This document shows, piece by piece, positions 11,988 through 42,453 of a stretch of DNA of 64,000 nt; position 1 is the stretch's first letter; the number at the start of each line of letters is the position of its first letter. The position numbers were made by a program, and so were the translations under genes. The notes below the pieces were generated by a model. That model was not told the origin of the DNA. It did no database searches and was given only the letters and a program-made list of their open reading frames with translations. This stretch comes from Salipiger bermudensis HTCC2601 (GTDB taxonomy: Bacteria; Pseudomonadota; Alphaproteobacteria; Rhodobacterales; Rhodobacteraceae), in assembly GCF_000153725.1 (NCBI RefSeq), contig NZ_DS022278.1:101798-165797 (forward strand), written 5' to 3'.

Positions 11988-14264
11988 ATGACCCATCTTG
12001 CCCCTGTTGCGCAGGCGTCCTTGCCTGCGCCCATTGTCCCGTTGGCAGCAAATCCTGCCCCTGCGATCGTTGCTGTTGCCGAAGCGCTGCAGCCCGATCT
12101 GGCGCAAGGGCTTCAGATCGACGCGCTGCGCCTGCGCCGCGAGATGGAACATGCCTTTGGCGGTTCCGATGCGACCGGTGCTTGGGACTGGAAGCTCGCC
12201 TATGAGGCGGGCGAGGTGGCGCTGATCCTCTTTCTGCGAAAGTTCGGTCGGGCGCTGCTTGCGCGTGCCGGCTCGCCTGCGGCGCTCTTGCCGATCCTCG
12301 CCAAGGTGGCAGGCCTCTTGCCCACGCACACCCGGCGGTCGGAAGAGATGGAGCGCTTTCAGCAATTCTCGACGCCGCTGCCCATGGGGCTCGCGGCTGT
12401 GGCGGCAGCACAGATCACGCCCCGTGATCTTGTCCTAGAGCCGTCTGCCGGGACCGGGCTTCTGGCGATCCTCGCCGAGATCGCCGGCGGCACTCTGGCT
12501 CTGAACGAGTTGGCCGACACCCGCGCCGACCTTCTGCGCCTCCTCTTTCCGGGGCGCCCCGTTACCACCTTTGATGCCGCGCAGATCGACGATCATCTCG
12601 ATGTCTCCTCAAGTCCGAGCGTCATCATGATGAACCCGCCCTTCTCGGCCCAAGCCAATGTCGATGGTCGGTCGACCGAGGCGACGGCCCGGCATCTGCG
12701 CTCGGCCCTCGCGCGTCTGGCCCCCGGCGGACGGCTCGTCGCCATCACCGGAGCCGGTTTCGCGCCGGTTGCGCCTGCCTGGGCCGAGACCTTCGGCCGT
12801 CTGACCGAGACCGCCCATCTCGTCTTCACCGGAGCTGTGTCGGGGGCAGCCTTCGCAAAGCATGGCACCAGCTTCGAGACCCGGATCTCGGTCTTCGACA
12901 AGTGCCGTTGCGGCGAGCGGGGTGGCATTACCGCTGATCTGGCACGCTCCATCTCGCCGGATGTGGCGCAACTCCTCGCCCGGATCGTGGCCGAGGTCCC
13001 TCCGCGCCTCACGTTGGATGCGGGTGATGTCGCTCAATCGCAGCCAGCTTCCCCTTTCCGGGGACTTCCTCACCGTGCGTCCGGCCCTGCCGCTCGACCC
13101 TTGCGTTCGACGGCAGCGACCAAGATGGATGTGCATGTCACCACGCCGGATGCCGAAGACCTCGGCTACATCCCGCGCGAGACAGCGGACGGCCACGGCG
13201 CCGCGCGCCTTTCCGACGCGATCTACGAGACCTTCCGCCTGCAGGCGATCGACATCCCCGGCGCGGCCCCGCACCCAACCAAGCTCGTGCAGTCGGCCGC
13301 CATGGCCTCAGTCGCGCCCCCTAAACCCACGTACCGCCCCAAGCTGCCCCCGGCCGTCCTGCGCGACGGCCTGCTGTCCGACGCGCAGCTCGAGACCGTT
13401 ATCTACGCGGGGGAGGCGCATGGCGCGCGTCTCGCGGGGTCTTGGACCGTCGATGAGACCGGAGACGTGGTATCCGCAGCACCGGAGGACGCCGCTGACG
13501 CTATCGGCTTCCGCCGGGGTTTCTTCCTTGGCGATGGCACCGGAGCGGGCAAGGGCCGCCAGTCGGCCGGGATCCTGCTCGACAACTGGTGCCAAGGCCG
13601 CCGCAAGGCGCTCTGGATATCGAAAAGCGACAAGCTCCTCGAGGACGCACAGCGCGACTGGTCCGCGCTCGGGCAGGAGCGTCTGCTGGTGACGCCGCTC
13701 TCGCGTTTCGCACAAGGCCGCGACATCCCTCTGACCGAGGGCATCCTCTTCACCACCTATGCCACGCTGCGCTCTGAAGAGCGCGGGGCCAAGAAATCCC
13801 GCGTCGACCAGATCGTCGACTGGCTCGGGGCGGATTTCGACGGGGTGATCCTCTTCGATGAAAGCCATGCCATGGCGAATGCCGCCGGGTCCAAGGGCGA
13901 GCGGGGCGATACCATGGCCTCGCAGCAGGGCAGGGCGGGTCTGCGCCTGCAGCACAAGCTGCCGAATGCCCGCGTGGTCTATGTCTCGGCCACGGGCGCG
14001 ACGACGGTCCACAACCTCGCCTATGCACAGCGGCTAGGTTTGTGGGGCGGGGAGGATTTTCCCTTTCAGACCCGGTCAGAATTCGTGGAAGCCATCGAGG
14101 CCGGCGGTGTCGCGGCGATGGAGGTTCTGGCCCGCGACCTCCGGGCGCTCGGCCTCTACACGGCGCGGTCGCTGTCCTATGACGGTGTCGAATACGAGAT
14201 GCTGGAACACGCGCTTAGCCCCGAGCAGCGCGGTATCTACGATGCCTATGCCGGGGCCTTCCAG
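11988..14264 (+). pseudogene. Methylase-like/strawberry-notch helicase, 5' part (split by RIT element)
   Basis: The first 759 codons of a very large plasmid protein. A methyltransferase-like region carries LEPSAGTGLLAILAE (about 150, SAM-binding motif I) and MMNPPFSAQ (about 215, NPPF catalytic motif). A helicase ATP site GDGTGAGKGR (about 514) and the Walker B-like ILFDESHAM (about 623) follow, as in strawberry-notch-type ATPases of plasmids and phages. The frame runs on into transposon DNA after Gln759 and stops at 14423. The matching second half resumes in the correct frame at 18119; excision of 14265-18118 restores an uninterrupted 1464-codon reading frame. Intact homologues are backbone genes of large alphaproteobacterial plasmids; this copy should yield only a truncated protein lacking helicase domain 2. 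Confidence 0.9.
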
Positions 14265-14321
14265 ACATTATGCGCAGCTGCGCATAATGTCCGTAATCGC
14301 GAGGACGCGATAATGCGAAGG
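14264..14321. repeat. RIT left end: 28-bp palindrome plus 28-bp terminal inverted repeat
   Basis: 14264-14291 is a perfect palindrome whose half is GACATTATGCGCAG. Next comes the left terminal repeat 14294-14321, beginning TAATCGCGAGGACGCG and ending GCGAAGG; its exact reverse complement is at 18088-18115. Inside the terminal repeat, ATCGCG and CGCGAT flank 4 bp (AGGA), the layout expected for two recombinase-binding arms around a crossover site. Confidence 0.85.
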
Positions 14322-14433
14322 TGTCCAGGATTCATTTGTGTTTTCCTTGGCTTCTGGATATCGGCGCGGCCTTTGCTGCGCATTATTTTGATTGCAAACC
14401 TCGGCGGCTTTCCAACCGTCTGAGGAGACACTC

Positions 14434-17014: not shown

Positions 17015-18015
17015 AAGCCACAAATCCCTTCCCCGAACTGTTGCGGGCCTTCTTCCAGGAATGGCTGGCGGAACAGCGTAGCGCCTCGATCCATACCATC
17101 AAGTCCTATCGGGACACCTGGCGGATGTTGCTCCGGTTCGTCGCGGAGCGAAACGGCGGCGGTGTCGCACGGATCACGCTGGCCGACGTCTCCGCCAGCG
17201 AGGTGCGCGCGTTCCTTACCCATGCCGAGCATGGTCGCAAGGGCACGATCGGCACGCGCAATTGTCGGCTTGCCGCGATCCGCAGCTTCTTCAGCTTCGT
17301 GGCGGACAAGGACCCTGAATATATCGCCCAATGCGCCGAGGTCCTCACGATCCCGCTCAAGCGAAAACCTACCGCCGCGCCCTGCTACCTTGAGCCAGGG
17401 GAGGTCGAGGCCATTCTCGCGCAGCCCGACCGGTCGACCATTGAAGGGATGCGAGACCATGTGCTGCTGTCGCTGCTCTATAATAGCGGTGCGCGCATCC
17501 AGGAGGCGCTCGATCTGTGTCCCGGCGCGATCCGTTTTGAAGCACCGTATTATGTGCGTCTTTACGGCAAGGGGCGAAAGGAACGCATCTGCCCGCTCTG
17601 GCCGGAAACCGTGGCTTTGATGAAGAAGCTGCTGGAGCGGCAGCCACGCGCGCCGGATGAGCGCATCTTCGTCAATCGCTACGGCGAGCCACTGGGAGCT
17701 TCGGGCGTGCGGTTCAAGCTGGCGGCCTACGTCGCGGCCGCGGCGAAAACGACGCCCTCGCTGCGTTTGAAACATGTGACGCCGCACAGCTTCCGGCACG
17801 CGACGGCCGTCCACCTCGTCGCGGCGGGCGTCGACATCACCGTCATCCGCAGCTGGCTGGGGCATGTCAGCCTCGACACGACCAACCACTACGCTCAGGC
17901 CAATCTCGAAACCAAGCGAAAGGCGCTCGAACAGGTCGGCGTTCCGGCAGAAGGAAATCGACCCGCGCGATGGAAACGTGACGCGGACCTGCTCGCCTGG
18001 CTCGATACCCTCTGA
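17011..18015 (+). CDS. RIT tyrosine recombinase C
   Basis: 334 residues from ATG 17011, again overlapping the previous stop by ATGA. Conserved features: EWLAEQRSASIHTIKSYRDTW (core-binding helix), NSGARIQEALDLCPGAI (Arg I), LKHVTPHSFRHATAVHLVAAG (His-x-x-Arg) and WLGHVSLDTTNHYAQANLETKRKALE (His and nucleophile Tyr). Length and motifs are XerD-like. The terminal repeat of the element begins 73 bp after its stop. Translational coupling across A-B-C suggests equimolar production. Confidence 0.9.
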   Translation: MKATNPFPELLRAFFQEWLAEQRSASIHTIKSYRDTWRMLLRFVAERNGGGVARITLADVSASEVRAFLTHAEHGRKGTIGTRNCRLAAIRSFFSFVADKDPEYIAQCAEVLTIPLKRKPTAAPCYLEPGEVEAILAQPDRSTIEGMRDHVLLSLLYNSGARIQEALDLCPGAIRFEAPYYVRLYGKGRKERICPLWPETVALMKKLLERQPRAPDERIFVNRYGEPLGASGVRFKLAAYVAAAAKTTPSLRLKHVTPHSFRHATAVHLVAAGVDITVIRSWLGHVSLDTTNHYAQANLETKRKALEQVGVPAEGNRPARWKRDADLLAWLDTL

Positions 18016-18087
18016 CCCCAACCGAAGGAGAAATAATGTGAAGGACGCAGCCCCGATATCCCCGAAAAATAGCGATGGTGCCGCGTT

Positions 18088-18115
18088 CCTTCGCATTATC
18101 GCGTCCTCGCGATTA
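18088..18115. repeat. RIT right terminal inverted repeat
   Basis: Exact reverse complement of 14294-14321 over 28 bases. Three bases later (18119) the interrupted helicase gene resumes in frame. Confidence 0.9.
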
Positions 18116-18118
18116 GCG

Positions 18119-20236
18119 ATCATCCACAACAACCTGACCGCGGCGCTGGAGGCGGCGAACATTTCCGGCGCGGCCGACGGGCCGAGCGGGTCGGGCACAC
18201 TGAACCGTCAGGCGAAATCCGCTGCGCGGTCAGCCTTCGAAAGCGCCAAACAGCGCTTCTTCGGCCATTTGCTCACCTCGATGAAGACCCCCACGCTGAT
18301 CGCATCCATCGATGCCGATCTGGCTGCGGGTCATGCGGCCGTCATCCAGATCGTCTCGACGGGTGAGGCACTGATGGAACGCCGCCTGTCGGAGATCCCG
18401 ACCGAGGAGTGGAACGATATCCGCTGTGATATCACGCCCAGGGAATACGTCCTCGATTACCTCGCCCATTCCTTCCCGGTGCAGCTCTACGAGCCTTTCA
18501 CCGACAGCGAGGGCAATCTTTCCTCCCGTCCCGTGGTGCGCGATGGCCAGCCGGTCGAATGCCGCGAGGCCGTCCGCCGTCGAGACGCGCTGATCGAAAA
18601 GCTGGCTTCGCTGCCGCCAGTGCCGGGTGCGCTCGACCAGATCGTCCAGCGCTTCGGCACCGATCTCGTGGCCGAGGTCACGGGGCGCTCGCGGCGCATC
18701 GTGCGCAAGGGCGAAGCGCATTCGGCACGGCTCGTGGTGGAGAACCGGGCTGGAGCCGCGAACCTCGCGGAAACCCAAGCCTTCATGGATGACGAAAAAC
18801 GTATCCTGATCTTCTCGGATGCCGGCGGCACCGGGCGCAGCTATCACGCCGATCTCGGGGCGAAGAACCAGCGCTTGCGGGTCCATTACCTCTTGGAGCC
18901 CGGCTGGAAGGCAGATGCGGCGATCCAGGGCCTCGGGCGCACCAACCGCACCAATCAGGCGCAACCGCCGCTCTTCCGACCGGTGGCCACCGATGTGAAG
19001 GCGGAGAAGCGGTTTCTGTCGACCATTGCGCGCCGCCTCGACACACTTGGCGCGATCACGCGCGGCCAGCGCCAGACCGGAGGCCAGGGGTTGTTCCGCC
19101 CCGAGGATAACCTCGAGTCGCCCTACGCCCGCGACGCCCTGCGCCAGCTTTACCGCCGCATCTATCGCGGCGATCTGGCCGGATGTTCGCTCGGGGCTTT
19201 CGAGGATGCGACCGGGCTCAGCCTGACCGATGACAACGGGCTGAAGGATGACCTGCCGCCGATCACGACCTTCCTCAATCGCCTGCTGGCGCTGACGATC
19301 GACATGCAGGCCGTGCTGTTCGCGGGTTTCGAGGAGCTGCTCGATCAGAGAATTGAGGGCGCCATCGCCGCTGGGGTCTATGATCTTGGGCTCGAGACCC
19401 TGCGTGCCGAGAGCTTCCGGGTGGCCGACGCACGCGTCATCTACACCCATCCTGGCTCCGGCGCCGAAACCCAGCTTCTCACCATCGCGGAAAAGCGCCG
19501 CAACACGCCGCTGTCGCTGGTTGATGCGCTCGACTGGCTGGATGATCCGAAGGCGCGTCTTCTCATTAACAGCCGCTCGGGCCGGGCTGCCGTGCAGGTT
19601 CCCGCCACCAGTCACATGCTGGACGATGGGACCATCGAGCCGCGCCTGCGCCTGATCCGCCCGCTTGATGCCAGCACGGTCCCGGCCAAGGTCATGGAGG
19701 ACACCCACTGGCTCGAGGCCGACCGCGCGGCCTTCACTGCGGCGTGGACTGCGGAACTGGCCGAGGTGCCGGAGTTTTCGGACTCCACGCTGCACATCGT
19801 GGCAGGTCTGCTGCTGCCGATCTGGAAGCAGCTTCCCCAGGATGAAACCCGCGTCTACCGCCTGCAGACCGATGACGGGCAGCGCATCATCGGCCGCCGC
19901 GTCTCGCCTGCCTGGGTCGCGACCACGCTGGCCGCCGATGCGCCCAAGCTCTCGGCCGCGCAGGTCCATGCCCTCGTTCTGGAGGGCAAGACCGTGGTGC
20001 GCCTGTCGGAAGGGATGGAATTGCACCGCTCGCGCGTCATGGGCGCGAACCGGATCGAACTGTCGGGCTTCTCGGAGGCAGCCAAGGATCGGCTCAAGGC
20101 CGATGGCTTCTTCTCGGAGATCATCAGTTGGAAGCTTCGGCTGTTCTGCCCGACCGACGCCGATGGCGTCGCGATACTGGATCGTCTGCTTGCACGTTGT
20201 CCTGTCGCAAGGCTACATGATCGCGGAGGTTGTTGA
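18119..20236 (+). pseudogene. Strawberry-notch helicase, 3' part
   Basis: 705 codons continuing the gene that starts at 11988. It opens IIHNNLTAALEAANISG and includes the helicase C-terminal domain: DEKRILIFSDAGGTGRSYHADL, then WKADAAIQGLGRTNRTNQAQ (motif VI with the QGxGRTxR pattern). A long C-terminal extension ends LRLFCPTDADGVAILDRLLARCPVARL. The extension beyond motif VI is typical of the plasmid strawberry-notch family. On its own it has no start or promoter other than what the RIT element could supply. The Toprim gene begins four bases after its stop, so the insertion may also have polar effects on downstream backbone genes. Confidence 0.9.
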
Positions 20237-23114: not shown

Positions 23115-24290
23115 ATGTCAGACGATTTCATTCCATTGTCAGTTCAGGATTTCTCAACGGATGCGCTTGCGACGGACCTTCGGCGGGACGCGGATTCCCT
23201 CAACTTCCCTTTGCTTGGCCTCTTTGGAGAGGTCGGGAGCCTTCTCTCTGAAGTGAAGAAGAAGCAGAGAGACCCGATCTCCTATCGCGCCTACGCGGCT
23301 GCGGTTACAGAGGAACTCGGCGACGTACTTTGGTACTTCAACCTAGTTGCTGCTAGGGCAGAAATCTCGTTCGCCGATATTGTCACCAACCTTGCCAGCG
23401 ATAGCGAGAACTGGCTATCCGCAACGGGTGTGCCGCTCACCTTTGAGGCTTTGCAGCCGTCTGTACTGACCGCTGGACAGTCACCGTCACCGGCTTTCGA
23501 AGCAACCCTCATCGAGTTGGCGGCTGCAACCGGGCTTCTTATGGCCGATCAATCGAACAACGAGCTCCAAAGGGATCGCCGACGTCTCGGACCCCGACTT
23601 GTCGCGATTCTCGAGATACTCATTCGCGCGGCCAATGAAGCGGGCGTCACGCTGGAAGCTGCGGCCATCAAGAATCGAGCAAAGACGACAGACCGATGGC
23701 CCATCCAGAAGGCATACCCGCCCTTCTTCGATGCGGACTTGCCCCCGGAAGAACAGCTGCCCAGAAACCTCAAGATCAACATCTTTGAACGGGAGGTTGG
23801 TGGCAAACGCTACGTCTTCCAGACCTGCAACGGCCTCAACATCGGGGATCGACTGACGGACAACGCTATGACACCGGATGACTACAGGTTCCATGATGTC
23901 TTCCACTATGCCTACGTCGCTATCCTTGGCTGGTCGCCGGTCACTCGTTCCCTTTTTCGGTTGAAACGTAAGAGTCGGCCAAAGATCGACGAGGCCCAAG
24001 ACGGAGCCCGCGCCGCATTGATCGAGGAGGGGATCGCGACTTGGATTTTCGGACAGGCCATGGAGATGGATTTCTTTCAAGACCTGAAGGCCGGGGAGTT
24101 GCCGTTCGACCTATTGAAGCAGGTCAGACAGTTCGTTCGCGGCTACGAAGCCGAGAACTGTCCGACCTGGCTGTGGGAAGAGGCCATCCTGCAAGGATAC
24201 GCAGCATTTCGCTATCTGCGTGAACATCGCCGTGGAACTGTTATCCTAGATGCCGTAGAGCGGCGGCTAAACATCGAGCCGTTGACATGA
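23115..24290 (+). CDS. MazG-like nucleotide pyrophosphohydrolase fused to an unknown domain
   Basis: 391 residues with a strong ribosome-binding site (GGAGGA, eight bases before the ATG). The N-terminal region is MazG-like: FPLLGLFGEVGSLLSEVKKK (30-49) and VTEELGDVLWYFNLVAAR (64-81), giving the Glu39 and Glu67-x-x-Asp70 metal ligands. The second canonical glutamate of the first helix is replaced by Ser42. MazG enzymes convert (d)NTPs to NMPs. Residues 200-391 (NGLNIGDRLTDN, DDYRFHDVFHYAYVAILGWSPVTRS, EEGIATWIFGQAMEMDF) are unknown. The gene ends in an ATGA overlap with the UDG-like gene, so the two work together. GC is lower than in the backbone, suggesting acquisition. Confidence 0.7.
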   Translation: MSDDFIPLSVQDFSTDALATDLRRDADSLNFPLLGLFGEVGSLLSEVKKKQRDPISYRAYAAAVTEELGDVLWYFNLVAARAEISFADIVTNLASDSENWLSATGVPLTFEALQPSVLTAGQSPSPAFEATLIELAAATGLLMADQSNNELQRDRRRLGPRLVAILEILIRAANEAGVTLEAAAIKNRAKTTDRWPIQKAYPPFFDADLPPEEQLPRNLKINIFEREVGGKRYVFQTCNGLNIGDRLTDNAMTPDDYRFHDVFHYAYVAILGWSPVTRSLFRLKRKSRPKIDEAQDGARAALIEEGIATWIFGQAMEMDFFQDLKAGELPFDLLKQVRQFVRGYEAENCPTWLWEEAILQGYAAFRYLREHRRGTVILDAVERRLNIEPLT

Positions 24291-24973
24291 ACACTCCAGA
24301 ATCCTTTGTCGAAGAACTTGCCGCTGTCGATTTGGTGAACACCTTTAATCCGTACAGCGACATCTGCCCCATTCACGATACCGTCGATGCTGCGCGCGCT
24401 CGACGCGAGAACCTGAAGCGGTGTCTTGAGGCCGCGATGAATGCCCGTGCTGATACTATCTGGATAGCAAGGGACCTCGGGTACCGGGGGGGACGGCGTA
24501 CCGGAGTACCCTTGACCGACGAAGCACATCTCACGGAAGCTGAACATCTGTTTGGCGGAATAACCCTTGCTCGGGCCACGACAGGACCGGCACTTGCCGA
24601 ACGTACGGCGACAGTCACTTGGCAGCTTCTTTCGTCAATTGGCAGGCCAGTAATGCTGTGGAATGTGTTTCCGCTTCACCCGCACGCGCCAGATGATCCC
24701 ATGACCAACCGCTCACATCGCAAAACGGAGCGTTCGGCAACCTGGCCATTTCTGTTGGCACTCCTGGAGATGCTTCAACCTAAACGCTTGGTGGCAATTG
24801 GGCGTGATGCGGGAGAAGCTCTAGCAGATTTGGACCTTCCTGTATCTCAGGTCCGCCATCCGAGCTATGGTGGGCAAAGTGAGTTCATTGCGGGCATCGA
24901 GGCAATATACAATCTCTCAAGTTCGGCCCGGCGACCGGAAACGGCAACTCTGCCTTTCGCTGAGTTTGCCTAG
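24287..24973 (+). CDS. Uracil-DNA-glycosylase-superfamily protein
   Basis: 228 residues, start overlapping the MazG-like stop. Superfamily features: DTIWIARDLGYRGGRRTGVP (base-binding motif region around 58-78), PVMLWNVFPLHPHAPDD (central motif), and LVAIGRDAGEALADLDLPVSQVRHPSYGG (170-198), where the His-Pro-Ser of the DNA-intercalating loop is clear. No Fe-S cysteine cluster is seen, so it is not a family 4/5 enzyme. It could remove uracil or a modified base, or act as a base sensor. Its stop codon overlaps, on the opposite strand, that of the thymidylate-synthase-like gene. Together with MazG-like and ThyA-like neighbours, dU-related chemistry is a natural inference. Confidence 0.75.
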   Translation: MNTPESFVEELAAVDLVNTFNPYSDICPIHDTVDAARARRENLKRCLEAAMNARADTIWIARDLGYRGGRRTGVPLTDEAHLTEAEHLFGGITLARATTGPALAERTATVTWQLLSSIGRPVMLWNVFPLHPHAPDDPMTNRSHRKTERSATWPFLLALLEMLQPKRLVAIGRDAGEALADLDLPVSQVRHPSYGGQSEFIAGIEAIYNLSSSARRPETATLPFAEFA

Positions 24974-25746
24974 GTATTGGCTGCAGACAGACCATCAATC
25001 TCGTCAAGGAGTGCTCGAAGCTCGCCGCGTGTTGTAGTCCCCCCGCAGGTTGATCGTGGCAGGTCGATTGTCGCATGTGACGACAGCACGGTCAGGGATC
25101 CAATATTGAGTCCAGCTTCAGTGGCCACAAACGACATCAACTGGCCGAGACCAACCAAGTTTCCGAGTAGCTTTTCGACATAGTAGTGGTTCCGGTAGAT
25201 CGCTGTGAGTGTGAGCGTCTCCGGATTCCCTGCCAACAGTTTGAAGCTGAGAAAACTGAGGCACTGTCCGCCGTAAGGGGAACGATCAACGTCGCGAGCA
25301 GGATCGAAAAGAGCAAGCTCAAATTTGTTCCTTGCCCTGACCGTCGGGTCCCTCATACGCGTGACGATGTCCCAAAGCGGATTGCCGGCCGGGGCGCCGG
25401 GCCAATCGACCATCCGCTCGAAATAATATCCTGACCATCTTTCGTTGCGTCGTACCGTGGGCAGAACTCGGTCGCGAAACCGGTCGAAGAATTCCGGGGC
25501 ACCATATCTGTGATAGAGCGCCTCCGGAAAGATCGTGTTGGCGATGGTTCGGACGGATTTGTCGTGCCGTAGCAAGAATTCATTGACGGCATTGACGCTC
25601 GCGTCGCTCAACTTTGCCCCGGCGGTCGGGTCATCAACAGACATCAGGACGTTGTGCGCCTCATGTCCGGGTTCGCTATCAACGCAACGAACCGCTTCGC
25701 GCCAAGTTCTTACACAATCAGGCTGTGGCGGAATGGCCAGATACAT
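24970..25746 (-). CDS. Thymidylate-synthase-like protein
   Basis: 258 residues, last gene of the minus-strand operon. The core RSPYGGQCLSFLSFKLLAG, LTLTAIYRNHYYVEKLLGNLVGLGQLMSFVATEAGLNIGSL, LSSHATIDL follows the thymidylate synthase plan: candidate catalytic Cys162, then Tyr-Arg185-Asn, Gly-Asn196, and a final Ser-Ser-His224. In ThyA these positions bind dUMP and the folate. The PCH motif is changed to GQC and the C-terminus is short, so substrate or reaction may differ (such homologues also make hydroxymethyl pyrimidines in phages). The start lies 29 bases inside the protease gene, suggesting translational coupling. Family call is by pattern only. Confidence 0.65.
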   Translation of the reverse strand: MYLAIPPQPDCVRTWREAVRCVDSEPGHEAHNVLMSVDDPTAGAKLSDASVNAVNEFLLRHDKSVRTIANTIFPEALYHRYGAPEFFDRFRDRVLPTVRRNERWSGYYFERMVDWPGAPAGNPLWDIVTRMRDPTVRARNKFELALFDPARDVDRSPYGGQCLSFLSFKLLAGNPETLTLTAIYRNHYYVEKLLGNLVGLGQLMSFVATEAGLNIGSLTVLSSHATIDLPRSTCGGTTTRGELRALLDEIDGLSAANT

Positions 25747-26401
25747 CGCATTCGTCCGTCAATATTGCCAAGGCATACATGTGCTTAGCCAGAAAATCCT
25801 CAGTTAGCCAAGCATACCCGCTCAAACCCCAGGTTGGTCCCCAGCTATTTCGCACCAGAATGACACGTTTCGTCGCCGCTTCCCCATAGCCGACCGCGAT
25901 AACGGCATGTCGCGGCGCCGGAAAAACTTCGTCACCGGTGATTTGGTCGATGACTCCATCCGATGGCGGATTAAAGAAACTTCTCGTCAGGACTGAAAGA
26001 ACAATAGCAGGGACGTTGGAATCCAACGCATCGCAAACTCGATCGACTTCGTGACTGGTCTTCTGACCTTCGCGCCCAAATAAATTTCCGACGGATGATG
26101 GGGGGCGATAGTGCCTCAGGTCCGTGGGCAAACGCGGAATGTACGGCCATCCACTTTCCGATGGCTGGCCGGTATCGCGAAGCGTGGCCAACATGTCGTC
26201 GAGAAATGCTCCCTTATTTGGAGAGCGCCCGGTACGTTTTTGTGCATGGTAGAAGGCGAACTCACATGACAGAGGATCCCAGCCGCTGCGCAATGCAGCA
26301 TGGGCGTCGCTGGCGGCAAACGCCAAGCAAGTTGGTCGCGCACCTTGATCCCTGACGGGCCCAAATTTCGCCCGTAAATCTACGTTTATCGTCACTGTCA
26401 C
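25718..26401 (-). CDS. Papain-like (C1 family) cysteine protease, cytoplasmic
   Basis: 227 residues. The GTG start at 26401 directly follows the TGA of the upstream gene (TGAGTG, no spacing). All C1 protease landmarks are present: Gln19 (oxyanion hole) and Cys25 in VRDQGARPTCLAFAASDAHAA, His165 in APRHAVIAVGYGE, and Asn185 in LVRNSWGPTWGLSGYAWLTE. There is no signal peptide and no inhibitory pro-region before the Gln, so the enzyme would be made active inside the cell. That requires control; the upstream partner carries an inhibitor-like domain. Likely a toxic or defensive protease, or a processing enzyme; the target is unknown. Bacterial C1 enzymes of this compact type are uncommon. Confidence 0.85.
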   Translation of the reverse strand: MTVTINVDLRAKFGPVRDQGARPTCLAFAASDAHAALRSGWDPLSCEFAFYHAQKRTGRSPNKGAFLDDMLATLRDTGQPSESGWPYIPRLPTDLRHYRPPSSVGNLFGREGQKTSHEVDRVCDALDSNVPAIVLSVLTRSFFNPPSDGVIDQITGDEVFPAPRHAVIAVGYGEAATKRVILVRNSWGPTWGLSGYAWLTEDFLAKHMYALAILTDECDVSGHSATA

Positions 26402-27415
26402 TCAAGCGGCCTCCAGGAGTCTTCGCCGCTCAGCACGTGAAAGGCCTTCACCTTCGGGGCCTGTCAGGTCGAGGTCCAACTCGAGCCTGGAGAAGCTCTG
26501 ATTGTGATCCCAGGGTCGTGTTTCATCCAACACAAGGCGACCTCGGTACTCTTCCGGAGGCATTGCCGTGACGCGTCGTATTCCAGGATCACCGACGCTG
26601 TCTGTTTCGATCGCTTCGATTTCATTACTGACGATGGCGAATCCGCTCTCCTGCAATTGATGGATGTTCCAGAGGTATCCTCCATTGCTGTGCTCGGTGA
26701 GCTTGAGGACGAATAGATCGTTACGACTGCCATCAATCAGCGCTCCAGCGTCGCGTTCGGTAAGTAGCCATACATCGCCCCGGTAGTTTGTCGGTCGATG
26801 ATCAGCGAGAAGAGCTTCTTTCAACGCCTTTGGCTTTGTCTGCAAAAGCTCGCGGGCCTGCTTCGCAGCAATCATCCTGTACCGAACCAGGGTCCAGCAC
26901 AACGCCTCGTAGCTCACCCCAAGTCGCAGACTGAACTGGTAAATCACGTTTGCGCGTCGAAAGTCTGGCACAGTCCAATTCTGCCGCCTCATATGTAGGG
27001 CGAGCAGCCATTTGGGCATGAGAAACGCGACTGCGAAAGCGTCGGCTTCGACTTCTTGATAGTCGTGGCCCGGATCGAAATTGGCTGGCATTCGACGGAG
27101 GATACTTGCTTCATCGTCGAGGCTGGGTTGATGGTTCAGAAGACAATGGCCGAGCTCATGTGCGGCCGTAAATCGCTGGATACTCATGGGGCGCTGAGTG
27201 GTGACGAGAATCCCTTGCGATGGGGCATTAAGATATGCTCCGAGCAAGCCGTCGAGCGGCCGTAGAAGCAAAGGCACGTCAAGTTCATTGATGAGAGCAA
27301 AAACGTTGACTGAACCGCCTGACGTTTCGAGCCGCTCTCGCACGCCTAGTTGCCGGTGTGCTCGAGCCGCCGCAGCTGCTCCGCCGCGAACTGCCTGCGA
27401 ATAATTGGAAACCAC
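26402..27415 (-). CDS. ImmA/IrrE metallo-endopeptidase fused to a chagasin-like (I42) inhibitor domain
   Basis: 337 residues from a GTG start at 27415 (AGGAG six bases upstream). Residues 78-135 are an ImmA/IrrE zinc protease: HELGH at 86-90 in RFTAAHELGHCLLNH and the third-ligand helix EVEADAFAVAFLMP. Residues 136-200 are its helical continuation. Residues 212-318 resemble chagasin inhibitors of papain-like proteases, with three loops in order: SNGGYLWN (243-250, cf. NPTTGYxW), GDPGIRR (275-281, cf. GxGG) and LDETRPWD (296-303, cf. RPW). ImmA-type proteases normally cleave an Xre repressor, which is encoded just upstream; the inhibitor domain fits the C1 protease encoded just downstream. The inhibitor assignment is an inference from motif order. 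Confidence 0.78.
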   Translation of the reverse strand: MVSNYSQAVRGGAAAAARAHRQLGVRERLETSGGSVNVFALINELDVPLLLRPLDGLLGAYLNAPSQGILVTTQRPMSIQRFTAAHELGHCLLNHQPSLDDEASILRRMPANFDPGHDYQEVEADAFAVAFLMPKWLLALHMRRQNWTVPDFRRANVIYQFSLRLGVSYEALCWTLVRYRMIAAKQARELLQTKPKALKEALLADHRPTNYRGDVWLLTERDAGALIDGSRNDLFVLKLTEHSNGGYLWNIHQLQESGFAIVSNEIEAIETDSVGDPGIRRVTAMPPEEYRGRLVLDETRPWDHNQSFSRLELDLDLTGPEGEGLSRAERRRLLEAA

Positions 27416-27418
27416 TGG

Positions 27419-27793
27419 TTACTCCTGGGTTGCGGCCGAGCGGGCGCGCAAGTACTCGGCAAAACGCCCCAGTTCATCCCGGTCTTGCCGAGACAAGTCT
27501 GCGGCTTGTCGTGCAAGGTGCGCTACATCTACCGGCAAACTCCCAGCTGCATCGTCTTCTCCGATGAAATACGCGACCGGTTGTCGATACAGCTTCGCGA
27601 GCCGGTTCAACTCCAGAGCCTCGACACGGCGGTTTCCGGCCTCGATCTCAGACAACGCGGTTCTCTGGATCTTGAGGTACTGGGCCACCTCGTCTTGCTT
27701 TAGACCCAAATACCGACGTGCTTCCCGCAGCCGCTCCCCCATCTCCTGCCGAGCTTCTTGGTCATCGTCGTTGGTCCGCTTGGCGACGCTCAT
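27419..27793 (-). CDS. Xre-family transcriptional regulator (ImmA partner)
   Basis: 124 residues from ATG 27793, which overlaps the previous stop (ATGA). A standard HTH_3 domain covers about 18-75: GERLREARRYLGLKQDEVAQYLKIQRTALSEIEAGNRRV, followed by LNRLAKLYRQPVAYFIGE. The C-terminal tail (LARQAADLSRQDRDELGRFAEYLRARSAATQE) is helical and could be the dimerisation or ImmA-recognition part. Xre-ImmA pairs form switches in which the metalloprotease inactivates the repressor upon a signal. It probably represses the operon promoter at 28147-28175. The longer upstream reading frame is rejected because it runs through the preceding gene. Confidence 0.85.
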   Translation of the reverse strand: MSVAKRTNDDDQEARQEMGERLREARRYLGLKQDEVAQYLKIQRTALSEIEAGNRRVEALELNRLAKLYRQPVAYFIGEDDAAGSLPVDVAHLARQAADLSRQDRDELGRFAEYLRARSAATQE

Positions 27794-28116
27794 GCTGACA
27801 CTCCATTCTTCTTCTTCCACTGCTGTTCCAGCCGCGGGATTAAGTGATCCAATGCGTCTTGCACCGAGTTGTATCCGCCAGTGCGTACCGTCGCATCCGC
27901 CGGCGTAAAGCCAAGCACTGGTTCGACCGCGCACAAGAGCTCCACAACTACAAGAGAGTCCATCGGTACAGGTGCGACTGCCGCCACCCCAGATGATGCG
28001 GGCAGTACAATTCCGTGCATGCTGGCTTCAGCCTCCGCCGCGAGCATGAGCTCGTCACGAAGCACAAGTTCCAGATCCTGCTTCGGAAACAGTTTCGTCT
28101 TGGTGGTCGTTTGCAT
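27790..28116 (-). CDS. Acyl-carrier-protein-like small protein
   Basis: 108 residues from ATG 28116, first gene of the operon. After a variable N-terminus (MQTTTKTKLFPKQDLELVLRDELMLAAEAE) comes PVPMDSLVVVELLCAVEPVLGF, then ATVRTGGYNSVQDALDHLIPRLE. This follows the acyl carrier protein plan: an Asp-Ser-Leu motif with Ser54 as the potential phosphopantetheine site at the start of a helix VELxxxxE, a loop with a Phe/Asp, then Thr-Val/Ser-Val-x-Asp and a final helix. No biosynthetic enzymes are nearby, so it would be a signalling or adaptor ACP. The family call needs a profile search; the DSL motif and helix spacing are what I can see. Confidence 0.6.
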   Translation of the reverse strand: MQTTTKTKLFPKQDLELVLRDELMLAAEAEASMHGIVLPASSGVAAVAPVPMDSLVVVELLCAVEPVLGFTPADATVRTGGYNSVQDALDHLIPRLEQQWKKKNGVSA

Positions 28117-28146: not shown

Positions 28147-28175
28147 AATATAATGTCGGAAAATCCAACACGCAA
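28147..28175 (-). promoter_or_regulatory. Promoter of the ACP-Xre-ImmA-protease-ThyA-like operon
   Basis: On the minus strand, TTGCGT (28175-28170), a 17-bp spacer and TATATT (28152-28147), 31 bp before the first start codon. It is a plausible housekeeping promoter. No strong palindrome is seen in it. Confidence 0.5.
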
Positions 28176-28403: not shown

Positions 28404-29516
28404 TTATTCACTCCAGTCGAGTTTCAACCAGTATCGCGTGTGCCTCCGCTCGCCGGTTCGAGCGAGCACGCCCTTCTCGACCAGATCCTGCAGATCGCGG
28501 GTCGCGGTCGCGCGTGAGGTTCCGGTGATCTTGAGGTAGTTGTCGGCGCTGAGGCCGCCTTTGAAACCGCCAGGGCCTTCCCGCAACATTCGAGCGATGG
28601 CCTTGGCCTGGCGTTCGTTCAAGTGGTCTCTGTGACGATCGTAGAAGTGTGCCTTGCTGATGAAGAAGCCGACGCGGTCGAGTGTTGCCTGTTGGGCTTT
28701 CAAGACAACTTCCGCGAACCAGACGAGCCAATCGGTCACATCGAGCGTTTTTTGATGCTGCTCGAGCTGGTCGTAGTATGCCTTGCGCTGCTTCTCGATG
28801 GTGAAGGCGAGCGAGATGAGGGTCGGCTGGCCAATATTCTGCGCCAGCGACTTTTCAGCGAGGGCGCGACCCAAGCGTCCGTTGCCGTCTTCGAATGGGT
28901 GGATGCTCTCGAAATAGAGGTGGCTTAGCCCTGCGCGCGTCAGCGCTGGAAGCGGCTCTGCTCCCCCCGGCCCGGTCTTGTTGTACCAATCCGCGTATCG
29001 CTCCATCTCAGGCATGACCCGCTCCGAGGGCGGCGCTTCGAAATGGATCGTGGGCCGGTCAAGGCGGCCGGAAACGATTTGCATCGCCTCGGCGTGTTGT
29101 CGGTAGGCCCCGATGGTTTCCAACCGACTGTCATGGGACAGGAGCATTCGATGCCAGCGGTACAGCGTCTCATGGGTCAGCGGCTCTGCAAAACTGGAAT
29201 AGACGTCGACCATCATTTCCGCGACGCCCTGTTCGCGCGGTTTGGCAGGGTAGCTGTCCGGATCGAGGCCCAGATGGCGGCGCAACGAAGACTGGACACT
29301 GAGCCGGTCGAGGATTTCACCCTCGATGGCGCTCGTCTGCATTGCTTCCTCGCTGAGCAGTTCGATGCGGAGTTGCTCGCGCTCCGGCTGGCTGACATGA
29401 TGGACCGCGCCGAGGATTTCTCCGGACGACAGCAGGAACGTCTGCTCAAACGGCTCCAGCGCGGAGGCGTCATACCGGAAATCCGGCCAATCAGGCAGCG
29501 TCCAGTTCCAAGCCAT
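28404..29516 (-). CDS. Fic-family AMPylase-type protein with N-terminal autoinhibition
   Basis: 370 residues. The Fic core motif is intact: HPFEDGNGRLGR at 206-217 (catalytic His206, phosphate-binding Gly-Asn-Gly-Arg). The inhibitory helix lies upstream in the chain: TSAIEGEIL at 61-69 has the (S/T)xxxE(G/N) motif, so this is an N-terminally inhibited (class II) Fic. The C-terminal 80 residues (NERQAKAIARMLREG, SADNYLKITGTSRATATRDLQDLVEKGVL) form a winged helix, giving DNA binding and likely autoregulation through the inverted repeat over its start region. Such proteins attach AMP to hydroxyl residues of target proteins. It is transcribed in the same direction as the protease operon, upstream of it, but has its own control region. 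Confidence 0.9.
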   Translation of the reverse strand: MAWNWTLPDWPDFRYDASALEPFEQTFLLSSGEILGAVHHVSQPEREQLRIELLSEEAMQTSAIEGEILDRLSVQSSLRRHLGLDPDSYPAKPREQGVAEMMVDVYSSFAEPLTHETLYRWHRMLLSHDSRLETIGAYRQHAEAMQIVSGRLDRPTIHFEAPPSERVMPEMERYADWYNKTGPGGAEPLPALTRAGLSHLYFESIHPFEDGNGRLGRALAEKSLAQNIGQPTLISLAFTIEKQRKAYYDQLEQHQKTLDVTDWLVWFAEVVLKAQQATLDRVGFFISKAHFYDRHRDHLNERQAKAIARMLREGPGGFKGGLSADNYLKITGTSRATATRDLQDLVEKGVLARTGERRHTRYWLKLDWSE

Positions 29517-29543: not shown

Positions 29544-29984
29544 ACAGATAGATCACTTTTGAGGCATAGAAGTCAACTCTATCGCTCAAAGGACCTGCGG
29601 GATGGGATGACCCACAAACCGACGCGAGGCCTTGAGCTAGGCCTTTTCAAGGTGCGTCAGATCTTGCTGACGCGGTCTGGGGGTCTTCGGATCGACTGGG
29701 TTCTGTTCCGTCGCTTGAATGAATGGTTCATAGCGAACGTCCTGTGTGGATGGCCCCCGCATAGCAAGGCTTAAATGAGATTGCGTGTACCTTTTCAGAA
29801 GCGGTCTTGTGTCCGGCCTGTTGATGCGGTCATCGCCGCTGGCCCTGATGGGATCCGCAGATCAGGTTCCTATCTGCTTTGCGGGCAATGGCGCCCGGGA
29901 CATTCGTCGGAGCGTCCTGATCGTTGCGGCTGAACGGTACACCATCACATCGTTGGTCTTGCTATCTCGTTGGCGCGCGCCGTC
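29544..29984. other. Non-coding stretch between the Fic gene and IS110
   Basis: Holds short frames without recognisable products. The right part must include the 3' non-coding end of the IS110 element, whose exact boundary I could not define. No terminator with a clear U-run is seen. Confidence 0.4.
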
Positions 29985-31004
29985 TCATACGGCGTGCGGC
30001 TTGTAGGGCTCGTCTCTGGTCAATACAGCCCACATGATCCGGGCCGTCTTGTTCGCCATGGCGACAGTCGCAAGCCGCGCTGGCTTTCTCTGCAGCAGCT
30101 TCGTCAGCCAGGGGTCGGCGCGCTCGGGGCGGGTCGCAACTTGCCGGATGCGCGATGTCATACCGACAACGATAAGCTGGCGTAGGTATCGGTCACCCAT
30201 CTTGGTGATCTTTCCCAACCGCTCTTTACCACCGCTGGAATGATTGCGTGGTGTCAGGCCAAGCCACGCCGCAAACTCTCGACCGCTCCGGAATTGGCGG
30301 CCCGACCCAATCGTAGCGGCCACGGCCGAGGCAGTGACGGGCCCGACGCCGGGAATGGTCTGCAGGAGTTGAGCTTGGCGGCTGAGACGGGCCTGAATAC
30401 GCATCGTGATCTCGTACCAGCCGAGGCGATTGTGCAGATCGACCAACTGTCGGCTGAGGACGCGCAGAACGTCCTGGGCCAGATCGGGCAGTTCCGGCTG
30501 CTTGCCGTCGATGATGGACCTGGCGAACTCGATGGCGCGCGCGACGCCCCGAGCGATGGTGATCCCGAACTCCGCTGCAAGGCTCCGGACCATGTTGATC
30601 AGCTGCGTCCTCTGGCGCACGATGAAGTCACGCGCGCGGTGCAAGGACAAGAGTGCCTGCTGCTCCTCGGACTTGATCTCGACGAAGCGCATCGTGGGCC
30701 TTGTCACGGCTTCGCAGATCGCTTCGGCGTCGACCGCATCGGACTTGCCACGCTTCACGTAGGGTTTGACGTACATTGGCGGCATCAGTCGGACGGTATG
30801 GCCGAGTTGCGAAAGCTCCCGCGCCCAATGGTGGCTCGATGCGCAGGCTTCGATGCCGATGAGGCAGGGCGACAGTCGCTCGAAGAACGCCAGCACCTGC
30901 GCCCGTCTCAACGGTCGGTTGAAGGCAACCTCTCCGGTCCCGGTCACTCCGTGGACTTGAAAGATGTTCTTGGCCAGGTCGAGGCCGACGGTGGTAACTT
31001 GCAT
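29985..31004 (-). CDS. IS110-family transposase
   Basis: 339 residues from ATG 31004 (AAAGGAGCCACCCC upstream). The N-terminal RuvC-like DEDD domain shows GLDLAKNIFQVHGV (first Asp), LIGIEACASSHHW (Glu) and RGKSDAVDAEAICEAV (Asp pair). The C-terminal Transposase_20 domain shows LLQTIPGVGPVTASAVAATIG (helix-hairpin-helix) and AWLGLTPRNHSSGGKERLGKITKMGD with the conserved Ser region. IS110 enzymes are guided by a bridge RNA made from a non-coding end of the element. The flanks (about 29850-29984 and 31005-31090) are where such an RNA would be, but I cannot delimit it. Full-length and apparently intact. Confidence 0.92.
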   Translation of the reverse strand: MQVTTVGLDLAKNIFQVHGVTGTGEVAFNRPLRRAQVLAFFERLSPCLIGIEACASSHHWARELSQLGHTVRLMPPMYVKPYVKRGKSDAVDAEAICEAVTRPTMRFVEIKSEEQQALLSLHRARDFIVRQRTQLINMVRSLAAEFGITIARGVARAIEFARSIIDGKQPELPDLAQDVLRVLSRQLVDLHNRLGWYEITMRIQARLSRQAQLLQTIPGVGPVTASAVAATIGSGRQFRSGREFAAWLGLTPRNHSSGGKERLGKITKMGDRYLRQLIVVGMTSRIRQVATRPERADPWLTKLLQRKPARLATVAMANKTARIMWAVLTRDEPYKPHAV

Positions 31005-31090
31005 GGGGTGGCTCCTTTCGATCGCAGATTCTGACACCTGCAGTATGGCGTGTTGCGACGCCGGGAGCGGGAGCCATCCACCCCATCTGC

Positions 31091-40706: not shown

Positions 40707-41546
40707 ATGTCGCGCATGAGTGGACAAGAGCACGAAAAGCTAAAGAACCTTCTTGAGGCTGTCCCCGCAGGGTTCCTCGTAGACTCCCCCTGGCTTGAAC
40801 ACCATGGGGTAGGCCGGCGCTCATCCTACGCCTATGTCCAACGCGGTTGGCTGGAACGCCTTGACCGCGGCGTCTTCCGGCGCCCCGCACCAGGCAGAGC
40901 CACCACGAACACACTCGACTGGAAGACCTGCCTGCTCTCGCTCCAGCACATCATGCACTACCCTGTCCATATCGGCGGGGCGACGGCATTGGGCCTGCAA
41001 GGCTATGCGCACTATCTCTCACTCGGCGACAAGAGCACGGTCTGGCTCTACGGCGCGAAGATCCCCAACTGGCTCGAGAAACTGCCGCTCAACGCCGACC
41101 TGCGCACCCGCAACGTATCGCTGTTCTCCGATCCCGAGCTGGGTGTCGATGACGCACGACGTAATCCCGACGAGACGGCATCAACCCTGCCATGGGACTG
41201 GAAGCTGGTCATGTCCTCGCCGGAACGCGCGGTCTTCGAGGCGCTGGACGAGTTGCCGGATCAGGAGAGCTTTCACACCCTCGACATGACGTTTGAAAGC
41301 CTGACGACGTTGCGCCCGAGAACCCTCTCGGCACTGCTCAGCAGTTGCAAGAAGATCAAGGTCAAGCGCCTGTTCTTCGTCTTCGCCGACCGCCACGATC
41401 ATGCCTGGCGCAAGCGTCTCGATCCAAAAGACTTCGACCTCGGCAGCGGGGATCGCGCCTTGGTCAAAGGCGGCAAGATACACCCGCGCTACAGGATCAT
41501 GGTGCCCGACGAGTTTGCAAGAAAGGAACGTGGTCATGGCGCGTGA
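40707..41546 (+). CDS. AbiEi-type antitoxin/repressor (copy 2)
   Basis: 279 residues. The N-terminal winged helix (LKNLLEAVPAGFLVDSPWLEHHGVGRRSSYAYVQRGWLERLDRGVFRRP) and the C-terminal antitoxin domain (VKRLFFVFADRHDHAWRKRLDPKDFDLGSGDRAL, GGKIHPRYRIMVPDEF) match copy 1 closely. The main difference is an insertion around 150-165 (DDARRNPDETAST). It overlaps the toxin gene by 11 bases, as in copy 1. The upstream palindrome at 40636-40652 differs from the control region of copy 1, so the two may be regulated separately despite similar proteins. Confidence 0.9.
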   Translation: MSRMSGQEHEKLKNLLEAVPAGFLVDSPWLEHHGVGRRSSYAYVQRGWLERLDRGVFRRPAPGRATTNTLDWKTCLLSLQHIMHYPVHIGGATALGLQGYAHYLSLGDKSTVWLYGAKIPNWLEKLPLNADLRTRNVSLFSDPELGVDDARRNPDETASTLPWDWKLVMSSPERAVFEALDELPDQESFHTLDMTFESLTTLRPRTLSALLSSCKKIKVKRLFFVFADRHDHAWRKRLDPKDFDLGSGDRALVKGGKIHPRYRIMVPDEFARKERGHGA

Positions 41547-42453
41547 AGACTATGCCGCCCAGGTGGCGCTACTCGTCCGGATACTCCCGCATGTCGCTAG
41601 GGAAGAGGTATTTGCACTCAAGGGGGGCACGGCCATCAACCTCTTCTATCGCGACCTTCCGCGCCTCTCGGTCGATATCGATCTGACCTATCTGCCTGTC
41701 AAAGACCGCGCCGAAAGCCTCGCCGAGATCAACGACGCGATGGACCGGATTGCCGCCGCCATCGAAGGCGGCATCGCCGGCGCCAAAGCACAGCGCATTG
41801 CCGGCGGTGGCGGTGGCGCTACACGCGTACTCGCCCGCCTCGGCCGGGCCGAAATCAAGATCGAAACCTCCCCCGTCACCCGCGGCGTCGTGCATGATCC
41901 GGAACACCGCGACGTCTCCGAAGCCGTCGAGGATGCGTTCGGATATGCGGAGATGAACATCGTCTCCTTCGAGGATTTGTTCGGCGGCAAGCTACATGCG
42001 GCCCTTGATCGCCAGCACCCTCGAGACCTCTACGACGTCAATCTGCTCTACGAGAACGAAGGCTTTACCGACGCGTTGTTCCGCACCTTTCTGGTCTACG
42101 TCGCGAGTTCACCACGCCCGCCGCACGAACTGTTGAACCCGAACCTGATCGATCTGGACCAGCCCTACGCGCGGGAATTCGAGGGCATGACGAAGGAAGC
42201 CGTCGACCTGGGGGAATTGATCGCAACGCGCGACCGCCTGATCGGGGACATCCAATCTCGGATGAATGAGGGCGCGAAGAGGTTCCTGAGAACCCTGCAT
42301 GACGGCGCCCCCGACTTCGACGCGATCGATCGCCCTCAAGCGGCCGAGCTTCCAGCCGTCAGATGGAAGCTCATCAACGTGCACAAGTTGAAAGCAAACG
42401 ATCCCAAGAAGCATGCCACCCAAGGGGAGGAGCTGGAGAAGCTCCTCGGCTGA
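41536..42453 (+). CDS. AbiEii-type nucleotidyltransferase toxin (copy 2)
   Basis: 305 residues from ATG 41536 (AAAGGAACGTGGTC upstream). Active-site motif LKGGTAINLFYRDLPRLSVDIDLTYLPVKDRAE gives GGT at 30-32 and DID at 47-49, identical in spacing to copy 1. GKLHAALDRQHPRDLYDVNLLYENE follows. It should use GTP or another NTP to modify a cellular target. The close relation to copy 1 raises the question of antitoxin cross-talk; see the findings. Confidence 0.9.
   Translation: MAREDYAAQVALLVRILPHVAREEVFALKGGTAINLFYRDLPRLSVDIDLTYLPVKDRAESLAEINDAMDRIAAAIEGGIAGAKAQRIAGGGGGATRVLARLGRAEIKIETSPVTRGVVHDPEHRDVSEAVEDAFGYAEMNIVSFEDLFGGKLHAALDRQHPRDLYDVNLLYENEGFTDALFRTFLVYVASSPRPPHELLNPNLIDLDQPYAREFEGMTKEAVDLGELIATRDRLIGDIQSRMNEGAKRFLRTLHDGAPDFDAIDRPQAAELPAVRWKLINVHKLKANDPKKHATQGEELEKLLG

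Follow-up and report, generated by a model that had tools for sequence, protein, structure and literature searches.

A five-gene operon of Salipiger bermudensis HTCC2601 that joins an ImmA peptidase carrying a predicted chagasin-family domain to a papain-like protease gene

The described systems closest to the locus reported here are CapH/CapP, of the cyclic oligonucleotide-based antiphage signalling system (CBASS) and other immune operons, and PprI/DdrO of Deinococcus, which share with it a helix-turn-helix (HTH) repressor and an ImmA/IrrE zinc peptidase near the head of the operon. CapH/CapP and PprI are reported to cut their repressors on single-stranded DNA (ssDNA) (PMC13373217, PMC10904395), which is sensed by a C-terminal GAF-like domain of PprI onto which CapP aligns (PMC10904395). 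The inhibitors of family I42 listed in the Protein Data Bank (PDB), among them chagasin, are short separate proteins of 105–132 residues. Adjacent genes for a cysteine protease and its inhibitor are found in the staphopain/staphostatin systems, where the proteases are secreted, the inhibitors are free in the cytosol, and no repressor or metallopeptidase takes part. Here we describe a five-gene operon of Salipiger bermudensis HTCC2601 in which the ImmA peptidase carries a predicted I42 domain and is followed directly by the gene of a papain-like (family C1) protease. It lies in a stretch of 64,000 nucleotides of NZ_DS022278.1, referred to as the window, and all coordinates are window positions.

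The operon resembles staphopain/staphostatin in its neighbouring protease and inhibitor genes and differs by its repressor and metallopeptidase. As in CapH/CapP, an HTH repressor and an ImmA with the HExxH motif lie in one operon. In contrast to CapH/CapP and PprI, the ImmA of the window has I42 in place of the C-terminal GAF-like ssDNA sensor, a C1 gene follows, and the first gene encodes an acyl carrier protein (ACP)-like protein; no CBASS gene is among the members of the operon. Unlike the I42 inhibitors of the PDB, the domain here forms one protein with a metallopeptidase, and its gene adjoins that of a protease without pro-peptide. Known families account for every part, and the regulatory pair would operate in the manner of CapH/CapP but lacks its sensor domain. 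No description of the combination was found by title or abstract among the matches listed in a search of open-licence full texts, a scope that leaves subscription papers and preprints outside; the labels 'protease inhibitor I42 family protein' and 'C1 family peptidase' are already given to part of the copies by automatic annotation.

The unit occupies positions 24970–28116 on the minus strand, and its features are, in gene order:
27790–28116, minus strand: ACP-like protein, 108 aa, with Ser54 of an invariant Asp-Ser; carrier-protein matches in the PDB by profile A7
27419–27793, minus strand: Xre/HTH repressor, CapH-like, 124 aa; by HTH_31 and PADLOC RmrA/capH
26402–27415, minus strand: ImmA/IrrE (M78) zinc peptidase with C-terminal I42, 337 aa; by Pfam, PADLOC capP and profile A6
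26441–26782, minus strand: predicted I42 (chagasin-family) domain of the same protein, residues 212–325; by Pfam and profile A10
25718–26401, minus strand: C1 papain-like cysteine protease, 227 aa; by Pfam, profile A2 and active-site residues
24970–25746, minus strand: thymidylate-synthase-like (TS-like) enzyme, 258 aa; by an NCBIfam match below cut-off, invariant residues and fold

The genes are tightly packed. The start codon of C1, a GTG, follows the stop codon of ImmA (26402–26404) with zero spacing, the ACP and Xre genes share an ATGA overlap (27790–27793), 3 bp separate Xre from ImmA, and the TS-like gene overlaps C1 by 29 bp.

Family profiles and aligned inhibitor loops make it nearly certain that the C-terminal domain of the fusion is a true chagasin-family I42 domain. 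Pfam assigns Peptidase_M78 to the protein at 5.5e-11 and Inhibitor_I42 to residues 231–307 at 9e-7, with 29.5 bits versus a cut-off of 27.2. The domains of loci L045, L046, L049 and L050 are likewise over the Pfam cut-off, as is the C1 protein of L050 for its own family, and the I42 match is present in 14 of the 16 rows of alignment A1, the remaining two being C1-less and free of I42. Profile A10, made from 13 I42 domains of different loci, matches amoebiasin-2 (2.1e-13), amoebiasin-1, Pseudomonas ICP and chagasin (7e-6) in the PDB, and the inhibitor loops 2, 4 and 6 (GYxW, G and RPW) align with those of amoebiasin and chagasin. At E<=1 the profile has 11 PDB matches, namely nine I42 inhibitors, one design based on amoebiasin-1 and one unrelated protein (E 0.61). 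Loop 2 reads G[YF]xW in all 19 distinct loci with C1. Loop 6 is RPW in 14 of them, the window included, and QPW, RLW or RAW in three more, so that its Trp is kept in 17/19.

The C1 protein, as judged from its sequence, is a catalytically complete papain-like protease without a pro-peptide. Pfam Peptidase_C1 matches above its cut-off at 1.7e-12, with residues 7–201 aligned to profile positions 5–204. Given that the match begins at residue 7, where the mature papain domain starts, the protein has neither signal nor pro-peptide; both are usual at the N-terminus in family C1, without being strictly defining. The active-site residues Q19, C25, H165 and N185 are identical in 19/19 distinct loci, and profile A2 matches papain-family chains of the PDB, with cathepsin H at 5e-19. 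The gene of the inhibitor precedes that of C1 at a gap of -4 to +10 bp in 18/19 loci, and L046 was read with a longer start.

The two partners were found together or not at all. In 30 distinct loci, I42 and C1 are both present in 19 and both absent in 11, and no locus has one of them alone. The C1-less relatives, reached through the TS-like protein or ImmA, come from cyanobacterial and Streptomyces plasmids, other proteobacteria and viral contigs. They keep Xre, ImmA and the TS-like gene in operon order, with an ImmA that has no I42; in L052, where ImmA is close to the end of the contig, no Xre was found. Five C1-less plasmid cases, the only C1-less ones inspected for it, have an ACP-like gene. 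By coordinates, C1 is adjacent in 16/16 plasmid records with the fusion. Among 289 alphaproteobacterial genomes, the one of the window included, 15 have I42 (13 over the cut-off); in six it is fused to M78, and all six fusions stand beside C1, while the other nine I42 genes (two under the cut-off) have no M78 or C1 relative within flanks of about 1.5 kb. In the viral controls, the I42 profile found nothing in 80 M78 loci or in 80 C1 loci, in each case the best 80 of a larger set. Both kinds of operon, with and without the pair, occur in one genome, G922 (L047 and L048).

These counts were made after L051/L038 (a C-terminal fragment of the TS-like gene only), L037/L228 (the same place as L050) and L054 (the same contig as L030) had been dropped. 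L002–L007 and L009 were dropped as near-identical, and L001, L008, L010–L014, L028, L029, L032–L036, L039, L220–L222, L224 and L225 as shorter cuts. The plasmid records H2, H4–H8, H10 and H11, which hold the fusion, enter only the count of 16 by coordinates.

The C-termini of C1-less ImmA proteins from Streptomyces and viral contigs (L030, L042–L044) weakly resemble I42 over its first 31 positions (probability 26% and P 7e-4 by hhalign), and no hint of homology to I42 was found in the cyanobacterial C1-less ImmA C-terminus. A beta-sandwich sensor domain may have gained the inhibitor loops, or may have lost them.

The first-pass annotation of this DNA had placed the ACP, Xre, ImmA-I42 and C1 genes where they are found here, with the same two junctions, and had described them as a four-gene operon, which missed the TS-like gene as a fifth. 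Its assignment of Gln19, Cys25, His165 and Asn185 to a C1 protease without signal or pro-peptide stands. The chagasin-like nature that it proposed for the ImmA C-terminus agrees with the Pfam and PDB profile matches, the gene order that it proposed to survey is conserved, and its linkage of protease and fusion is broken in none of the 30.

Xre and the ImmA/CapP-like zinc peptidase are predicted to form a regulatory pair. Scanned from an upstream start, Xre matches HTH_31 at 4e-9 and PADLOC RmrA and capH at 7e-14 and 6e-12, respectively. The HExGH motif of ImmA is present in 30/30 loci, its PADLOC capP match has a value of 4e-16, and profile A6 of the ImmA part matches PprI (8slm) and CapP (7t5t). 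The N-terminal fold matches PprI (3dti) at 8e-5 and CapP at 3e-3, and I42 sits C-terminally, at the position of the GAF-like ssDNA-sensing domain in PprI. Upstream of the ACP gene the following candidates were found:
28147–28175, minus strand: candidate promoter, with a -35 hexamer TTGCGT (28170–28175), a 17-bp spacer and a -10 hexamer TATATT (28147–28152)
28154–28170, minus strand: candidate Xre operator, the palindrome TGTTGGATTTTCCGACA, in the promoter spacer before ACP

The hexamers were judged against the sigma-70 consensus. The palindrome, with arms TGTTGGA and TCCGACA around a central TTT, fills the 17-bp spacer between them, and its pattern has one match without mismatch in the whole window. 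With up to two mismatches on both strands there are four matches versus 0.97 expected, and 4 of 100 shuffles reach as many. A search matrix built solely from four Rhodobacterales loci was used to seek the best site 100–700 bp before Xre, and this site ranks top of the entire locus in 11 of 15 other C1-containing loci and in 4 of 11 C1-less ones. An operator shared with MazG/UDG was considered and rejected, as no second site of such strength stands before these genes in the window. Xre very probably acts at the palindrome, and ImmA probably cleaves Xre; both are proposed because CapH/CapP and PprI/DdrO behave in this manner.

The fifth gene encodes a protein with the fold, the Cys and the Asn of the thymidylate synthase (TS) superfamily, to which the predicted model and the alignments would assign it. 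The 258-aa window protein has no Pfam match, and 4 of 14 relatives match Thymidylat_synt weakly (best 0.0023). Against the NCBIfam family TIGR03283, a methanogen thymidylate synthase, it scores 3.8e-7 and 29.8 bits, below the cut-off of 174.55. Its predicted model (pLDDT 75, pTM 0.80) matches the phage dCMP hydroxylase AfhB, the CMP hydroxymethylase MilA and thymidylate synthases with E of 4.6e-8 to 1.1e-7. The fold search returned 386 matches at E<=0.001, with TM-scores of only about 0.4–0.6. C162 and N196 are invariant in 20/20 rows. In TS chains they are matched by a Cys and an Asn, the former catalytic and the latter binding the base; the profile match reaches E 0.0016 at best.

The ACP-like protein of the window has no Pfam match and reaches no curated cut-off. 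Its Asp-Ser is present in 14/14 rows of alignment A4 and 14/14 of A7, which are overlapping sets, and the PDB matches of profile A7 are mostly carrier proteins (best 3.2e-5). Two relatives have matches below cut-off, L042 to TIGR00517 (1.8e-7, 30.9 versus 70.45 bits) and L040 to PP-binding (15.2 versus 20.8). In L017, L018 and L021 the operon has a phosphopantetheinyl transferase gene as a neighbour, identified by Pfam for L017 and L021.

Convergent with the operon, two genes on the plus strand lie next to the TS-like gene, and the tail of the UDG-like gene overlaps it by 4 bp:
24287–24973, plus strand: UDG-superfamily gene; Pfam UDG with 25.0 bits versus a cut-off of 24.3
23115–24290, plus strand: MazG/MazG_C nucleotide pyrophosphohydrolase-like gene; Pfam MazG_C at 2.7e-82

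The loci with C1 have UDG in 15 of 19 and a 5-hydroxymethyldeoxyuridine (5-hmdU) DNA kinase (PF18723) in the other four, and those without C1 have the kinase in 10 of 11, L055 having neither. UDG and the kinase were never found in the same locus stretch in the 30 loci, and Pfam confirms three of the kinases. MazG_C is present in 26/30 loci, and genes for dCTP deaminase, dTMP kinase or phosphopantetheinyl transferase adjoin some of them. The mutual substitution of UDG and kinase points to uracil-type bases, and the gene content points to a cluster concerned with uracil-type nucleotide or DNA modification. In the DefensePredictor study (PMC13092281), TS and 5-hmdU kinase domains are reported as validated in new defence systems, MazG-C is predicted, and UDG appears in a figure legend of predicted systems. 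The TS-like, HMUDK or UDG, and MazG_C domains of such clusters recur at operons of the window type, and the main text of that study does not contain the words ImmA, acyl carrier, metalloprotease or zinc peptidase. PADLOC matches were obtained for 6 of 10 neighbour genes, namely SduA and DUF499 (L017), AbiEii (L016), PD-T4-6 (L022), a weak caspase (L018) and Fic (window).

The UDG gene of L004 lies in two pieces about 1.4 kb apart (L004:10443–12764), and a 13-bp stretch of the window (24706–24718) is contained in both UDG alignments of L004, as after an insertion with target duplication. In two Rhizobium plasmids the TS-like gene is split into two open frames (L015:7669–8428 and L018:7607–8441), with C1 and ImmA-I42 staying open. 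These split genes were left out of alignment A5, both loci were left out of A3, and they entered the tree described below by their best single open frame only.

The five-gene order is present in 8/8 annotated plasmid regions, two of which (L015 and L018) have the TS-like gene split; they come from Rhizobium, Sphingobium, Bradyrhizobium, Sulfitobacter, Acuticoccus, Burkholderia and the archaeon Haloarcula. Five further genomes of the order of the window have it too. Its range covers Alpha- and Betaproteobacteria as well as a plasmid of a haloarchaeon, and this conservation in distant genomes excludes chance. The TS-like gene follows C1 in all 14 loci first compared (the window and L015–L027) and in 18 of the 19 loci with C1 overall. 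The remaining one, L050, has a C-terminal TS-like fragment only, placed upstream, and no ACP detected; its ImmA-I42 still adjoins C1, and MazG and the kinase come after them. The operon is rare, with 7 of 390 genomes of the order and 4 of 398 genomes of the phylum at E<=1e-10, two of these four without I42. Six other records, from Maritimibacter, Ruegeria, Nioella, Mameliella and Donghicola, have 94–98% DNA identity over the operon, and such identity across genera points to recent spread. Of 21 matching plasmid records, 16 of which hold the fusion, 14 are typed conjugative. The Haloarcula plasmid copy (L021) adjoins genes for 5-hmdU kinase, dTMP kinase and phosphopantetheinyl transferase, and it suggests that the unit from ACP to the TS-like gene was transferred across domains.

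A phage origin was considered and rejected, given that the fusion has no match in 50,697 phage records (E 1e-5) or, in a single-protein search, in viral contigs; three viral contigs have relatives without I42 and C1. The comparison of non-synonymous and synonymous substitutions (dN/dS) gave no finite dS in 19 of 21 comparisons and a dS >2 in the other two, with dN of 0.09–0.38, and for this reason only general purifying selection can be stated.

We give an even chance to the reading that this is a mobile, self-repressed operon under a latch of two proteases, with nucleotide modification as its output and plausibly directed against phage. In the resting cell, the operon would be shut off by Xre. 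The loops of the fused I42 domain would fill the active-site cleft of C1 and hold both peptidases inactive in one complex; that I42 binds C1 has a good probability. A signal linked to infection or to nucleotides would open the complex, the freed ImmA would cleave Xre, and the operon would be induced. The freed C1 would be an effector or would keep the switch on. The absence of a pro-peptide and the inhibitor-first gene order favour C1 as an effector. A sensing role is favoured by the place of I42 in ImmA, which in PprI belongs to the sensor domain. The carrier protein and the TS-like enzyme would be the induced output, which together with UDG (or the 5-hmdU DNA kinase) and MazG_C would have deoxyuridine-type nucleotides or DNA bases as targets; its most plausible purpose is a plasmid-borne phage defence. 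A role of the operon in phage defence is favoured slightly better than evenly. A more specific form is put forward only tentatively: the chagasin-type domain would be the sensor of ImmA, the state of C1 in its cleft would tell ImmA whether to cut the repressor, so that two unrelated proteases would lock each other, and a carrier-dependent, TS-like modification of uracil-type nucleotides or DNA bases would fight phage, the whole being common to plasmids of proteobacteria and a haloarchaeon.

Several observations weigh against the latch and its link to defence. The tree of Xre, M78, TS-like and MazG proteins needs one change only for the I42/C1 pair (support 74/25, found in 76% of bootstrap trees; none of 500 shuffles is as low), which means one joint gain or loss followed by strict joint retention and not many independent events. 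The tree is unrooted, so gain and loss are undirected; L004 was left out, and L021, L022, L050 and L055 have long branches. Joint inheritance is also usual for linked genes. The mirror-distance partial correlation of I42 with C1 is 0.06, with no excess over the rest of the operon, compared with 0.54 for the pair M78 and I42 and 0.45 for the pair C1 and TS-like protein; this speaks against a tight co-evolution of I42 and C1. Loop 6 is absent from L018 and L050, both of which retain C1. In the AlphaFold model, nearly all of residues 205–337 have a pLDDT <50, the alignment rows there being near-identical or without I42. The matrix scan found no palindrome before L021, L022 and L050, and the site before Xre is not top-ranked in 7 of the 11 C1-less loci. 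Furthermore, the neighbour genes scanned with PADLOC were picked by hand without a plasmid-wide control, and 4 of the 10 had no match.

The alternative that fares best makes C1 a ligand that controls ImmA through I42 and need not harm the cell, so that ImmA would cleave Xre once C1 is consumed, inhibited or drawn off, for which a phage protein or the substrate of C1 could be responsible. It agrees with I42 being the C-terminal domain of ImmA, and with the existence of the operon elsewhere without C1 and I42, which makes the pair look like an exchangeable regulator. Nonetheless, it is unlikely, given that a mere ligand needs none of the four catalytic residues that all 19 C1 proteins keep, unless cleavage is part of the signal.

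The first-pass annotation had read the locus as a switch in which the fusion restrains the protease, that is, a protease-based toxin-antitoxin or anti-phage system. The switch part is plausible and is in line with a predicted true I42 tied to C1, the conserved order and the palindrome in the promoter. As a plasmid toxin-antitoxin, C1 would be a stable toxin, ImmA-I42 a labile autoregulating antitoxin, and the operon would retain its plasmid. An inhibitor gene that comes first, close spacing, likely autorepression and the frequent location on conjugative plasmids (14 of the 21 matching records) would suit this. It is nonetheless improbable: Xre, ImmA and the TS-like gene stand together without C1 and I42 in 11/30 loci, which C1-based addiction fails to account for, and a simple protease toxin-antitoxin was rejected as the purpose of the whole of it. 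Some copies also lie on large contigs (771 kb in L025, 3.4 Mb in L046). Likewise, there is little to be expected of the explanation that the operon hypermodifies the plasmid's own DNA or nucleotides for self-protection, with C1 only maturing or recycling the carrier or the enzymes. The TS-like enzyme, MazG_C in 26 of the 30 loci, and either UDG (15) or the 5-hmdU kinase (14), never both and neither in one locus, fit it, as do the genes for dCTP deaminase, dTMP kinase or phosphopantetheinyl transferase that adjoin some loci. However, it leaves unexplained why an inhibitor of C1 is fused to the derepressor peptidase, and tight autorepression fits an inducible system better than a constitutive protective modification. 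It is very improbable that I42 is a matter of fold only, a chagasin-like beta-sandwich sensor that does not inhibit C1 and co-occurs with it as the frozen, accidental result of a single insertion or loss. The single change on the tree, the lack of a residual I42–C1 distance correlation and the weak likeness of the Streptomyces and viral C1-less C-termini (26 % probability over the first 31 positions, P 7e-4) speak for it; loop 2 in 19/19 loci, the loop-6 Trp in 17/19, PDB profile matches to I42 inhibitors and not one locus of 30 with a lone partner speak against it.

The surroundings of the operon in the window hold further elements. Upstream, on the strand of the operon, lies a Fic-domain gene (DUF4172-Fic, 28404–29516; PADLOC SoFic 1.7e-42), followed by an IS110-family element at 29743–31088 that is not present in three near-identical islands (L002, L003 and L006), whose alignments to the window pass from 29742 to 31089–31092 at this site. 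A strawberry-notch-type helicase gene is split into an AAA_34 part (11988–14423) and a Helicase_C_4 part (17864–20236) by three consecutive tyrosine recombinase genes, with a Pfam integrase match in 3 of 4 frames scanned; this triplet resembles a recombinase-in-trio element. An AbiEi/AbiEii type IV toxin-antitoxin pair was identified by Pfam at 9428–11147, and a second pair at 40707–42453 is proposed by the likeness of its translations to the first.

If the latch is real, it would be a prokaryotic protease restrained by an inhibitor that is built into a transcriptional derepressor, with proteolysis and induction held in one physical lock. It would allow signals other than ssDNA to be sought for ImmA peptidases, would give a concrete target to an intracellular bacterial I42 domain, and would tie a carrier protein and a TS-like enzyme to nucleotide-modification genes that have been predicted or validated in defence. 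The C1-less operons are a natural control for the role of the C1/I42 pair.

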